DNA from: Desulforhabdus amnigena
Lineage (GTDB): Bacteria; Desulfobacterota; Syntrophobacteria; Syntrophobacterales; Syntrophobacteraceae
Length of the DNA stretch: 64,000 nt
Assembly (NCBI RefSeq): GCF_027925305.1
Contig: NZ_BSDR01000001.1
Coordinates: 2,631,001 to 2,695,000 of the forward strand
Direction: 5' to 3'
Shown piece after piece: positions 59,679-64,000 of the stretch. The position numbers and the translations under genes are program-made. Position 1 is the stretch's first letter. Every line of letters starts with the position of its first letter. A model generated the notes under the pieces. That model was not told the DNA's origin and did no database searches. It worked only from the letters and a program-made list of their open reading frames with translations.

Positions 59679-59752
59679 AACCACAGAGACACGGAGAATA
59701 AAAAGATTTCATTTGAAGGTCTTTCTCCGTGCCCTCCGTGTCTCTGTGGTTT
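59679..59752. repeat. Dispersed inverted repeat family A, copy 6
   Basis: AACCACAGAGACACGGAG at the left and CTCCGTGTCTCTGTGGTT at the right, with the internal GATTTCATTTGAAGGTC shared with copy 2. It is followed directly by a family B fragment. Confidence 0.85.
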
Positions 59753-59823: not shown

Positions 59824-60669
59824 ATGATGGATAACAGCGAATCATTCCTCCAGGAAATTCAGGATGACCTTTCGGAGATACTCAAGCCCTATCAAAAACA
59901 GGTGATGCAACGGCAGCGGATGGCCGAGTTCATCAATCAGTGCATGCGCTGCGCCGGTCGAGACGATTTCATTTTGCTCGATGAACTCCTTCAGAGCAAA
60001 ATGGTGGAAGAAATAGAGCGGGAAGAGGGGCTCGAGGGCTGCGGGAGGATTTTCGGTCAACTGAGAACCTACGCCGATGAAAAAGTGGAACGGTACCGCA
60101 TCCATTTCATTGAAGATCTCTTGGCACGGGCCGAAGAGGCCGGTCTTCCCCTGGAGATCGATTTTCCCCGCCTCAGTTGCCTGAAGGGAATAGAAGGAAC
60201 GGTGGATTTCAGCAAACGGACCACGACCATCAACAAAAAAGTCCTCAAATCCATCGATCCCAAGCGGATCATTTCGGCGCTCCTCAGGGCCAAGCGCGAA
60301 CTCTACGACCGTCCTTACGATCCTCAAGCCTTCATCGACAGCCTCCGGCAGACTTATGGTGAAATCCTCAAGAAGGAAGGCTGGGCGGAGGGAGACTCCG
60401 TTCCCATCCAGCGATTCTATTTCGAATATGTCATGTCTCTCCAGAGCAAAGTCTTCTTTCAGGACATGGACAAAGGAAAATTCCGGGGCTACAGCCTGGA
60501 CCAGTTTGCCGTGGATCTCTGGCGCTATTTTCAGGCGGGCACGGGCGGAACGTCCGATGGATACGCCCTGCAGTTGAGGCCGGGAAGAAACAATTCCCTC
60601 TGGCTCATCGACAGCGACGGCGAAAAGCGCCAGATCACCGGAATCTCTTTTCAGAAAGCCGAACCATGA
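59824..60669 (+). CDS. Unknown protein, first gene of an ATPase/helicase module
   Basis: 281 residues, mostly helical and charged (YQKQVMQRQRMAEFINQCMR, then EEIEREEGLEGCGRIFGQ), with a C-terminal part LWRYFQAGTGGTSDGYALQL that may be a small beta unit. No membrane segment or catalytic motif is visible. AAAGGA lies upstream. Its end overlaps the next ATPase by 4 bases, so they are coupled. I do not recognise a family; a partner or loader for the ATPases is the natural inference. Confidence 0.75.
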   Translation: MMDNSESFLQEIQDDLSEILKPYQKQVMQRQRMAEFINQCMRCAGRDDFILLDELLQSKMVEEIEREEGLEGCGRIFGQLRTYADEKVERYRIHFIEDLLARAEEAGLPLEIDFPRLSCLKGIEGTVDFSKRTTTINKKVLKSIDPKRIISALLRAKRELYDRPYDPQAFIDSLRQTYGEILKKEGWAEGDSVPIQRFYFEYVMSLQSKVFFQDMDKGKFRGYSLDQFAVDLWRYFQAGTGGTSDGYALQLRPGRNNSLWLIDSDGEKRQITGISFQKAEP

Positions 60670-62000
60670 TACCCAAAGAACAAATCGACGCATTGAAGCC
60701 TTTCCAGGCCAGGGCCATTATCGAGGAACTCCGGAAGGGAAGCGTCCCCATGGACTATGTCTCCTTTTTCACCGTGGGACGCGAAAACTGGCTGACCTTC
60801 ATAGAAGACGATCTGGATCACTACATCGCGGAAGGCGGGGCCAAGGTCCGCTTCATCAACGGCGACTATGGAGACGGGAAAACCCACTTCATGTCGGTCA
60901 TCCGCCATATGGCCCTGGAGAAGGGCTTTGCCGTTTCCTTCGTGGTTCTCACACGCGAAGTGCCCATGCAGAAGTTTGAAATCGTCTACAGAGAAATCGT
61001 CAAACAACTCCGGGTCCCGGCAGGTTCCGGGACAGGCGGGAGCCTGAAGGTGGAGGAAGCCGGCATCCGAAGCCTTCTGAACGCATGGGCCGACAGCCTG
61101 GCATTGGGCATGGCGCTGGAGGAAGGGCCTTCCCTGCAAGAAAAATTGCTCCTCACGGGTGAGGAGCTTCGCGCCCTTCCCGGCATGGAGGCCAATTTTG
61201 CCAACGGAATCATGAGCCTGCTCGAAAACCGCCTGACTCCCCCGCAGGAAGGGGAAATGGAGGAAGAGCGCCTTCAGAAACGCGAAGTCCTTTATCAGTG
61301 GTTCGAAGGGGGAAAGGTCGCCAAGAAGGACCTGAAGCCGTTTCAGATCTTCGAATCCCTCAACAAAACCAACAGCAAGCGCTTCCTCGGCTCTCTCATG
61401 GCTTTCCTCAAGTACCTCGGCTACAAGGGGCTCATCCTGCTCCTGGATGAACTGGAAACCGTCGTCGCGCAGTCGACCTCCGTCCGAAATGCGGCTTACG
61501 AAAACGTCCGCCTCCTCATAGACAACACGGAACAGGCGCGGCATCTCCATATTTTCTTTTCCATCATCCCCGACGTCATTCTTTCCGAGAAGGGCTTCAA
61601 ATCCTACGATGCCCTATGGAGCCGCGTTCGTTCCATCGGCGAGAGCAAGCGGCTGAACTACCGCAGTATCCTCATCGATCTGCACAAGACCCCCCTCGAG
61701 ACTTCGGAGCTCATTGAACTGGGGCTTGCCCTGCGTCGCATTCACGAAATCTCCTACCGCTGGGAAGCAAAAGAAATAGTGAAGGAAAACCTCATCGAAC
61801 AGATCTGCATGCATCAAAAACAGATGGGGCTTCTGAGCGAAGTGCGCCTTTTTATCAAACAGGTGATCCGCATCCTGGACATGGCCGAACAGGGGGAGGC
61901 CCCCGATGAGACGTTGGACCTCACGGAGCAGATCCTCACCAGCCGGCGGGAGATGGAACAGGAAAAGATGGAACAACTTCAACCCAGGTGGGATACGTGA
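60666..62000 (+). CDS. BrxD/DUF2791-like P-loop ATPase, copy 1
   Basis: 444 residues. Walker A GDYGDGKTHFM (about 61-71), Walker B LILLLDELETV (about 258-268) and a following sensor-like VILSEKGFKSYDALWSRVRS. The overall pattern, with an N-terminal RAIIEELRKGSVP, matches DUF2791 ATPases, one of which is BrxD of BREX systems. The stop overlaps the next ATG by one base (TGATG). Probable motor or clamp in a DNA-targeting complex; the function in this setting is not established. Confidence 0.8.
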   Translation: MIPKEQIDALKPFQARAIIEELRKGSVPMDYVSFFTVGRENWLTFIEDDLDHYIAEGGAKVRFINGDYGDGKTHFMSVIRHMALEKGFAVSFVVLTREVPMQKFEIVYREIVKQLRVPAGSGTGGSLKVEEAGIRSLLNAWADSLALGMALEEGPSLQEKLLLTGEELRALPGMEANFANGIMSLLENRLTPPQEGEMEEERLQKREVLYQWFEGGKVAKKDLKPFQIFESLNKTNSKRFLGSLMAFLKYLGYKGLILLLDELETVVAQSTSVRNAAYENVRLLIDNTEQARHLHIFFSIIPDVILSEKGFKSYDALWSRVRSIGESKRLNYRSILIDLHKTPLETSELIELGLALRRIHEISYRWEAKEIVKENLIEQICMHQKQMGLLSEVRLFIKQVIRILDMAEQGEAPDETLDLTEQILTSRREMEQEKMEQLQPRWDT

Positions 62001-63277
62001 TGGAAAGCATACTTCAAGGCGGGGGAATTCAGGCATCGGACAGGGAAAACAGATCCTTTCGGGAAGCCCTGGAAAGGGAAAGCGATTTCCGCATCCGCCG
62101 CGCCGTGGAACGGCTTCGTGAGGGGCTCTTCGATCCCGTCGCCGTTCGACTCCTGACGGCCCATGAGAATCGCCTGAGGGAAGAAACCGAACGGGGATTC
62201 CGGGCGGTGGACGCAGGAAAATCTCCCCACCTTTGCGTCGTGGGGGCCTACGGACAGGGCAAATCACACAGCCTCACCTACATTCAGGACCGGGCATCGA
62301 GGGAAGGCTTCGTGACCAGCATGGTCAACCTGGATCCCCGGGAGGTCCCCTTTCAGAACTTTCGCGAAGTCTACCGGGCGCTGACGGCCGGCCTAAGGTT
62401 TCCCGACACCGAGGCGTCGTTCATCGTTCAGTGGAAGAGGTGGGCCCAGCAGCAGATGGCGGAAAGTCAAGATCCTGTCAACGCTCCGGCCGATGTGCTT
62501 CCCAAAGAAATGCCGCATCTTTTCAAATCGGTACTGGTGGCCATGGCTCACAGGAACCTCCCCCTTTCCGAGAAGGAAAAGCGGCTGAAAAAACATGCTG
62601 CGTTCCGCCCGAAGGAATTTCCCGTTCTTCTGGCCCGCGCACTGGCCGGCGAAACCGTACCGTATCATCGCCTGCGAAACGTCTTCAAATACCGCCGGGT
62701 TCCCTTCTTCAAGGAAGCGCCTCTGACCCTTTGCGGCACGGAACCCTTCTTCCAAATGACCCGGTCATTGGGTCGCCTCTTGCGCAACATGGGCTACCGG
62801 GGCTGGGTCCTTCTCTTCGATGAAGGAGAATCCATCGTGCAGGCGAACGTTCTCCTTCGCAGCAAGGCCTACAAGCTTTTGCACCGCTTCTTTTCGCCAG
62901 AAGAGCCCGATCCCTCGTTCCTCTATCCCGTCTTTGCCTTCACCGAAGATTTTTTCCACCAGGTGCGGCAGGAGGATTATGACCAGGTCAGGGTACGGGG
63001 AGAGGTGGAAATTCCCTATTTCGATCGAAACTACGCCCAAGAATGGAGGGAACTCACGGTTTACCGGCTGAGCGATCTGTCTCGCGAGGAATGGGAAGAT
63101 CTCTCCCGGAAGCTGATGGACCTCCATGCCAGGGCCTACCGCTGGCAGCCTCCCGAAGCGGAGGTGCACCGGGAGATGGCCAACCGGCTCAGCACCATGA
63201 GCCGCCAGGAAACCCGTCTCAAGCTGAAGGCCCTGGTGGATTGCCTGGACCTGGCGTACCAGGAGCAGGTTTTATAA
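62000..63277 (+). CDS. BrxD/DUF2791-like P-loop ATPase, copy 2
   Basis: 425 residues from ATG 62000. Walker A GAYGQGKSHSLTYI (about 84-97), Walker B WVLLFDEGESIV (about 270-281). Its layout parallels copy 1 but identity is low, so they are old paralogues that may form a hetero-oligomer. Start overlaps the first ATPase stop by one base. It is followed after 15 bases by the helicase. Confidence 0.8.
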   Translation: MESILQGGGIQASDRENRSFREALERESDFRIRRAVERLREGLFDPVAVRLLTAHENRLREETERGFRAVDAGKSPHLCVVGAYGQGKSHSLTYIQDRASREGFVTSMVNLDPREVPFQNFREVYRALTAGLRFPDTEASFIVQWKRWAQQQMAESQDPVNAPADVLPKEMPHLFKSVLVAMAHRNLPLSEKEKRLKKHAAFRPKEFPVLLARALAGETVPYHRLRNVFKYRRVPFFKEAPLTLCGTEPFFQMTRSLGRLLRNMGYRGWVLLFDEGESIVQANVLLRSKAYKLLHRFFSPEEPDPSFLYPVFAFTEDFFHQVRQEDYDQVRVRGEVEIPYFDRNYAQEWRELTVYRLSDLSREEWEDLSRKLMDLHARAYRWQPPEAEVHREMANRLSTMSRQETRLKLKALVDCLDLAYQEQVL

Positions 63278-63292
63278 AAAGCTTTGTATCCT

Positions 63293-64000
63293 ATGCCTTC
63301 AGCTCACGACACATTCGACTCCCCCCTTTTACTGCTCCCCAACACCTACCGGACTTTTTACGGGAGTTTTTCACACCTGCACTCCATCCAGAAGGAGGCC
63401 ATCGAACCCGTGCTCGCCGGCCGCGACCTGGTGGTGCAGTCGGCCACGGGGTCGGGCAAGACCGAAGCCGTCCTGGCTCCCTGTATCGAAAAGGTGATCC
63501 GGTCAAAAGGGGCTGACGCCGTTCTCTACATCGTTCCCACGCGCGCACTGGCCATTGACCTGGAGCGGCGCCTTGCTCCCATACTCGGTCAACGCCTGGG
63601 ATTGAATTTCGGAATCCGCACGGGCGACGCCAAACGGACCGGCGGCGGACACCCTCACCTGATGCTCACCACCCCGGAATCCCTCGACGTCCTCATGGGA
63701 AGCTCGAACAAAGAGTTGCAGCGTTTTGTACAGCGAGTGCGCACGGTGATCATCGATGAGGTGCACCCTCTCGTACACCAGTACAGGGGCAGACAGCTGG
63801 CCTGCCTGCTCCAGCGCCTGGAACGCCGCATCGGCGCCCCGGTGCAGAAGATCGCCCTTTCGGCCACCATTTCCGACGTCGGGGCCATCATGGATTTTTT
63901 CGGTTTTCGCCCCGATGCCGTGCACCTCCTGAGCACCTTGCAGCGCGAGATTGTTCCCCACCTCATCCATATCAAGCGGGAAGAAGAACTCGTCGCCCTC
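63293..64000 (+). CDS. DEAD/DEAH-box SF2 helicase, cut by the window edge
   Basis: 236 residues visible, open at the edge. Motif I VVQSATGSGKTEAVLAPC (about 47-64), Ia VPTRALAIDLERRL, Ib TTPESLDVL, motif II IDEVHPL, and motif III ALSATISD. The DEVH box and the Q-motif-like HSIQKEAI point to the Lhr/BrxHI group of helicases. The ATG at 63293 has no strong ribosome site, so an upstream non-ATG start is possible. Fourth gene of the module. Confidence 0.85.
   Translation, partial: MPSAHDTFDSPLLLLPNTYRTFYGSFSHLHSIQKEAIEPVLAGRDLVVQSATGSGKTEAVLAPCIEKVIRSKGADAVLYIVPTRALAIDLERRLAPILGQRLGLNFGIRTGDAKRTGGGHPHLMLTTPESLDVLMGSSNKELQRFVQRVRTVIIDEVHPLVHQYRGRQLACLLQRLERRIGAPVQKIALSATISDVGAIMDFFGFRPDAVHLLSTLQREIVPHLIHIKREEELVAL

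Follow-up and report, generated by a model that had tools for sequence, protein, structure and literature searches.

A five-gene operon encodes two divergent ATPases, a new partner protein and two helicases

We analysed a 64,000-nucleotide stretch of Desulforhabdus amnigena DNA (the window), which corresponds to positions 2631001-2695000 of a complete, single-contig genome of 4.54 Mb. Near its end lies an operon of five genes on the + strand, here named A to E in their order, of which the window edge cuts D and hides E (Table 1). A sequence-only reading of the window had described four open reading frames (ORFs) on this strand, A, B, C and the start of D, and all four are present. Genes A and B overlap by 4 bases (ATGA), as do D and E (ATGA). 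The other two junctions, a 1-base overlap of B and C and a 15-base gap between C and D, hold as first described if C starts at ATG 62000 and D at ATG 63293. The proposed four-gene module with a helicase was correct as to the Lhr/BrxHI-like helicase; the module has five genes, however, D also carries a nuclease-like domain, and E, a Dna2/UPF1-like helicase, comes after it.

Table 1 Features of the operon and its upstream repeat, in window coordinates
Feature	Position	Strand	Description
Gene A	59824-60669	+	281 aa, no family match
Gene B	60666-62000	+	444 aa, BrxC/BrxD-type (ORC/Cdc6-like AAA+) ATPase
Gene C	61988-63277	+	429 aa from GTG 61988; ATG 62000 is an alternative start; second, divergent BrxC/BrxD-type ATPase
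Gene D	63284 (alternative ATG 63293) to 64000 in the window, to window-equivalent 66622 in the genome	+	1112 aa, helicase and nuclease-like domain
Gene E	window-equivalent 66619-69579, wholly beyond the window	+	986 aa, superfamily 1 helicase
Inverted repeat upstream of A	arms 59679-59696 / 59734-59751		perfect, 18 bp, 100% complementary; arms separated by 37 bp; a T run follows

Proteins B and C both matched PF10923 (BrxC_BrxD, formerly DUF2791), with 191.7 and 84 bits, respectively, against a cut-off of 22.2. Each contains a Walker A and a Walker B motif (GDYGDGKT and LLLDE in B, GAYGQGKS and LLFDE in C). The earlier description of two divergent BrxD-type ATPases with a new partner is supported. 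BrxD has been classed as an origin recognition complex (ORC)-Cdc6 AAA+ ATPase, and loading of BrxHI by BrxD has been suggested (PMC12839542).

Protein A had no match in NCBIfam or PHROGs, and Pfam and PADLOC gave only noise; the comparison with PADLOC, proposed in the sequence-only reading, yielded no model matching A. The AlphaFold2 model of A, built from a 16-row alignment, had a predicted local distance difference test (pLDDT) score of 91.0. It shows a long helical hairpin (residues 2-105), then a small alpha/beta domain at about 110-160 and, at the C-terminus, a domain resembling a winged helix at about 165-280. The C-terminal domain gave weak structural matches to ORC1 winged-helix domains (VIA-align, Z 5.2-5.8), and a Foldseek search with the model found nothing at E<=0.001 (best E 2.0). 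A is probably a new DNA-binding protein. VIA-align also matched A to helical bundles and to Mediator or frataxin-like alpha/beta folds; with Z of 4-8, these and the ORC1 matches were too low to assign a family beyond a winged-helix-like C-terminus. Weak DUF6276 and JetA profile matches of A relatives were not used, and the single match in locus L034 turned out to be an MltA protein and was dropped. No relative of A was found among 50,697 phage records, nor in viral contigs searched with A1 sequence patterns.

Residues 29-717 of D form a superfamily 2 (SF2) helicase of the Lhr/BrxHI kind (DEAD 106 bits, BrxHI 291 bits). The C-terminus of D (about residues 770-1108, ~340 residues), scanned alone, matched PDDEXK_1 with 24.5 bits (cut-off 22) and contains GIPD, GDIK, QxxxY and C ... 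CxxCx5C, the last of which is the cysteine pattern of Cas4, AddB and Dna2. By its motifs, this region appears to be a nuclease-like, Cas4/RecB-like PD-(D/E)XK domain with a Cys motif, in which the window protein combines a Dna2/Cas4-type active site with four cysteines. The nearest solved relatives of the superfamily 1 (SF1) helicase E were DNA2 (96 bits) and then UPF1 (82 bits). Because D carries Cas4/RecB-like motifs and E is nearest to DNA2, the end of D together with E is laid out like a Dna2 nuclease-helicase.

The operon recurs with a conserved gene order

We refer to the window's version of the operon as type I and to individual loci by L numbers. Type I comprises 15 loci (the window, L007-L016, L035-L037 and L063), with L018, L039 and L087 counted as duplicates of L007 and L019 and L041 as duplicates of L008. 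Gene B follows A in all 15, so this arrangement is not due to chance; the A of L016 is cut by the contig end. Gene C comes next in 14 of the 15, the exception being L014. Thirteen contigs reach usefully beyond C (beyond B for L014). D was seen in 11 of them, the two without it being L014 and L015; the contigs of L009 and L012 stop within about 130 bases of C. Gene E was present in every D-bearing locus with enough contig (10/10), L063 being cut within D. In seven of these ten, D and E form a single ORF of 1,895-2,034 aa; the window and L007 have them as two genes, and in L011 they are broken.

Some type I loci appeared damaged or replaced. In L011 (L011:13378-18950), D is spread over several frames. 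Neither C nor D follows B in L014, and L015 has no D within 0.75 kb after C.

Walker A is intact in all 14 of the type I B proteins that were examined and in 12 of the 13 C proteins; the remaining one, from L012, was read in the wrong frame. Walker B is apparent in a 12-row alignment. Among nine aligned D and E proteins, the SF2 and SF1 helicase motifs are kept in all nine, except for DEVQ in L036 and a conservative DEAH for DEVH in L013. The C ... CxxCx5C cysteines of the nuclease-like domain are present in 9/9 and G-D-[IV]-K in 8/9; at E<=0.5, the Cas4 profile matched eight of the nine domains and PDDEXK_1 six. The N-terminal stretch of E is absent in L008.

We constructed a phylogenetic tree of 49 ATPases, which contains several long branches. 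The C proteins fell on one side of a single branch in 21 of 22 cases (support 90/96, not starred), and the window's C belongs to a lineage separate from type I B, BrxD and the Shango protein SngB. SngB and BrxD join each other (99/96) and are separate from B and C of type I. The exceptions were the C of L029, which lies beside the B of the same locus, and four of five B proteins of a second type (type II, below), which lie nearer to SngB/BrxD than to type I B. One ancient duplication likely gave rise to B and C; it is not proven, as the placements of the L029 C and of the type II B proteins disagree with it.

Type I loci are patchily spread

A profile of A matched 25 of 395 genomes of the window's phylum, and the best seven matches (families f1, f12 and f45) are type I. 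Within the window's own family, type I was found in three of six searched genomes. The nearest operon is that of Desulforhabdus sp. TSK, whose A is 78% identical. Beyond Desulfobacterota, type I was observed in Latescibacterota, Gemmatimonadota, a genome labelled Deltaproteobacteria and one further bacterium, all of them metagenome-assembled genomes (MAGs). A concatenated tree was built from ten loci, six of them from Desulfobacterota, with L015 contributing 36% of columns. A single clade for the six Desulfobacterota rows was rejected (approximately unbiased test, p-AU 0.004). This phylogeny fits horizontal transfer, with misbinning of MAGs as a caveat.

The operon has a G+C content of 57.9%, compared with 50.2% in the 0.8 kb upstream, 50.7% in the 9.4 kb downstream and 54% in the whole window. 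In the window genome and in L007 it is flanked by homologues of the same two genes, although in the window genome ~8 kb of other sequence separates it from each of them. Directly downstream (L005:10743-17910), transposase-like and integrase/recombinase-like ORFs are clustered with ORFs resembling group II intron reverse transcriptases, all read from their sequences without a family scan. An empty-site comparison within the window's family found, in one genome (G276, L086), a homologue of the gene that lies upstream of the operon in L007; none of the other ORFs in the 14 kb read matched, so that no clean empty site was shown.

A type III restriction enzyme gene adjoins one type I locus. Comparison of 52 flanking ORFs of 12 type I loci with PADLOC (E<=1e-10) gave one REase_III, PDC-S01 (two members), one SoFic and generic ATPase matches; there was no control set, and we do not claim enrichment.

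Upstream of A, the inverted repeat at 59679-59751 belongs to a dispersed CCACAGAGACACGGAGAA repeat found mostly as inverted pairs, with further window sites including 2591, 6487, 13362, 49528 and 56345. The window contains 10 matches to CCACAGAGACACGGAGAA at <=3 mismatches, with 0.06 expected. It is possibly an element resembling a miniature inverted-repeat transposable element (MITE-like) or a terminator element, and the copy upstream of A may also serve as a terminator isolating the operon.

Related modules carry other helicases

More distant homologues of A were found at the start of other modules. In type II, A-B-C is followed only by an Lhr-type helicase of ~700 aa (L029, L030 and L032). 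Type II was also found on two plasmids. On Desulfomonile tiedjei plasmid pDESTI.01 it lies near AbiEi/AbiEii toxin-antitoxin genes, and on the conjugative Aulosira laxa plasmid3 (L085:3201-15095) it forms a separate module directly after genuine Bacteriophage Exclusion (BREX) type 2 genes (PglZ 1057, BrxD 552 and BrxHI 929 bits). Type III (L064-L067) has A-B-C with similar following ORFs. In L064 (L064:3954-10001), the only locus of this type scanned for composition, they encode a small 185-aa protein without a Pfam match and an SNF2 helicase fused to an Mrr-type nuclease; this is apparently another undescribed module, with a similar gene order in L065-L067. Further or partial arrangements were found in L031, L033 and L075, the last of which (L075:1-4398) has an A-like gene and then three BrxC/D-type ATPase ORFs, the third cut by the contig end.

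The operon is distinct from BREX and Shango

The homology of B to BrxD and SngB and of D to BrxHI and SngC raises the question whether the operon is a BREX type 2 or Shango locus in degenerate or variant form. The scores of B and D are, however, far below those of genuine members. As BrxD (PDLC02494), B scored 147.2 bits against 552.4 in a genuine locus and also fell below the NCBIfam BrxD cut-off of 350 bits; as BrxHI (PDLC02503), D scored 290.8 bits against 847.9; and as SngB, B scored 109.4 bits against 576.8-635.7 for four genuine SngB proteins. The complete 4.54-Mb genome has no PF08665 match, and hence no PglZ. None of the five operon genes encodes a PglX methyltransferase, BrxC/PglY or PglW; PglX and PglW were not sought genome-wide. 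Protein A did not match TerB, nor did its profile resemble that of a genuine SngA, which bears TerB_N and TerB_C. BrxD and SngB group apart from type I B and C, and on Aulosira laxa plasmid3 a related module lies next to BREX type 2 genes. We therefore rejected membership of BREX and Shango by gene content, scores and the ATPase tree, and regard a variant of either, already largely refuted, as very improbable.

The sequence-only reading had left room for pgl or brx genes beyond the window edge, and had named a normal BREX set after the helicase as the finding that would make the locus a known type. No such set is there; the helicase is followed by E and then by transposase-like ORFs. The view that the operon is a distinct system thus stands, given its recurrence in 15 loci and its separation from BREX and Shango.

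A possible anti-invader function

We consider it slightly more likely than not that the operon is an undescribed, horizontally moving anti-invader system of a 'paired ORC/Cdc6-like ATPase plus helicase' kind that degrades invader DNA. This reading builds on the gene content, motifs, gene order, distribution and phylogeny described above. The plasmid-borne related modules beside BREX type 2 or AbiE genes, and the type III restriction enzyme gene adjoining one type I locus, also count in its favour. From these we infer complex formation, DNA as the substrate, loading, degradation, a self/non-self choice and an antiphage effect. Protein A, with its helical hairpin and winged-helix-like C-terminus, would recognise or hold DNA and bridge to the ATPases. 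B and C, which probably separated long ago, would assemble into a mixed ring, or part of one, and load D/E on the target. The SF2 helicase would open the DNA, the Cas4/RecB-like nuclease domain would cut it, and the Dna2-like SF1 helicase would drive processive resection, with both helicases feeding the nuclease. Invader DNA would be degraded without a base-modification tag. Since the operon has no modification enzyme, the self/non-self choice would rest on DNA ends, topology or replication state and not on a base mark; that these features provide the discrimination is our guess.

Several observations weigh against this reading. The full nuclease active site is present in only six of the nine aligned proteins. 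The motif II Asp is lost in L035 and L036, and L008 has GDTM for GDIK, losing the motif III Lys, so that in part of the type I family the nuclease domain may be purely structural. A PDB profile search with the nuclease domain found no relevant relative, and its fold, predicted by AlphaFold from a single sequence with no alignment supplied, had a pLDDT of 34.6. Other type I loci adjoin tRNA-synthetase (gltX-like), ComM-like, rlmL-like and umuC-like genes, and an ABC-transporter-domain gene, named from its sequence, is also among the neighbours.

The best evidence against a purely antiviral role comes from family f41. A homologue of A (A') was found in 5/5 searched f41 genomes, from four genera (L069-L071, L073 and L074), and L072, from family f73, resembles these loci. 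A' is truly homologous to A, as hhalign of A1 against the five f41 sequences and one f73 sequence gave a probability of 97.5 (E 4.9e-12, 253 columns). In L070 (L070:4718-8204), A' lies between SIS-domain and ApbA genes, with a pyrF-type decarboxylase and a phosphoribosyltransferase around it. A similar layout was seen in L069 and L071-L074, domains having been scanned in L070 only. The B-C pairs lie apart from A' in the four f41 genomes read, beside cysS-like, Na/Ala symporter, tldD-like and lptF-like genes. A strong helicase match (446 and 440 bits) stands at another site in two of the five genomes, and the other three have weak matches only. This scattered set looks like a domesticated or core complex.

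Such a set would be expected if the proteins maintained host DNA, by repair, fork processing or end resection, as a complex that happens to move horizontally. B-C would then place the Dna2-like helicase-nuclease on damaged DNA of the host, and defence would play a secondary part or none. Relatives of Dna2 and Lhr are cellular repair enzymes, which also counts for this explanation, as do the true homology of A' and the placement of A', B-C and, in two of five genomes, the strong helicase at separate sites among housekeeping genes. We nevertheless consider it unlikely. Type I and type II loci are patchy, are plasmid-borne in two cases and cross phylum borders, and no D or E relative was found at the f41 B-C loci. 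The earlier proposal of a defence system accordingly survives in part: the gene set is distinct and recurrent, but its part in defence is an inference, and the f41 homologues among housekeeping genes argue against an exclusively antiphage one.

The target could also be plasmids. A system against plasmids or conjugation, comparable to Wadjet or DdmDE and with A-B-C sensing DNA topology or replication, would suit an operon that combines ATPases of the loader type with helicase and nuclease but has no modification enzyme, and relatives on plasmids, with no relative of A in the phage records or the viral-contig scan, point the same way. The sequence link to Wadjet/DdmDE is, however, limited to one weak JetA match (14.6 bits) of a distant A relative, and we regard a system directed at plasmids and not phages as quite improbable.

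A broader form of the anti-invader reading is tentative, and we think it rather doubtful. The operon would belong to an immune family built like an origin-loading machine, in which two ORC/Cdc6-like ATPases and a winged-helix adaptor load interchangeable helicase-nucleases (the Lhr-nuclease-Dna2 fusion, the bare Lhr-type helicase or SNF2-Mrr) on invader DNA, and one family would have domesticated the core for a chromosomal role. The f41 set would then be an immune module that became a chromosomal function, or one that arose from such a function. If this is true, an ORC/Cdc6-like loading step would be central to a family of defences in bacteria. A branch that joins two ATPases to a defined small partner, and in which a nuclease-like domain is fused between two helicases, would make the 'helicase loader' idea directly testable.

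Comparison with known systems

We recognised no publication on this five-gene set in open-licence PMC full text, a coverage that leaves out most subscription papers. The operon resembles the BrxD-BrxHI part of BREX type 2 in that an ORC/Cdc6-like ATPase gene adjoins an SF2 Lhr-type helicase gene. It differs in having two ATPases, gene A, the nuclease-like domain and an SF1 helicase, in lacking PglX, BrxC and PglW, and in its genome lacking PglZ. The end of D with E resembles Dna2-type nuclease-helicases, in which a Cas4/RecB-like domain with a Cys cluster motif is followed by an SF1 helicase; here, however, the nuclease comes after an SF2 Lhr-like helicase, and there are three accessory genes as well. 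E also matched the SF1 helicase region of DpdJ (145 bits) and of Mokosh MkoA (152 bits), but the match is to the helicase region alone, and the operon gave no match to further components of Dpd or Mokosh.

Shango (SngABC) shares the order of accessory protein, ATPase and helicase. It is antiphage by phage assay (PMC10250203), which makes it the nearest tested relative in layout. SngA has TerB_N/TerB_C, whereas A does not, and Shango has one ATPase where this operon has two. The nuclease-SF1 extension of this operon likewise has no counterpart described for Shango in the consulted part of that source (PMC10250203). BrxD-BrxHI and SngB-SngC are both ATPase-helicase pairs, to which this operon would add a third branch.

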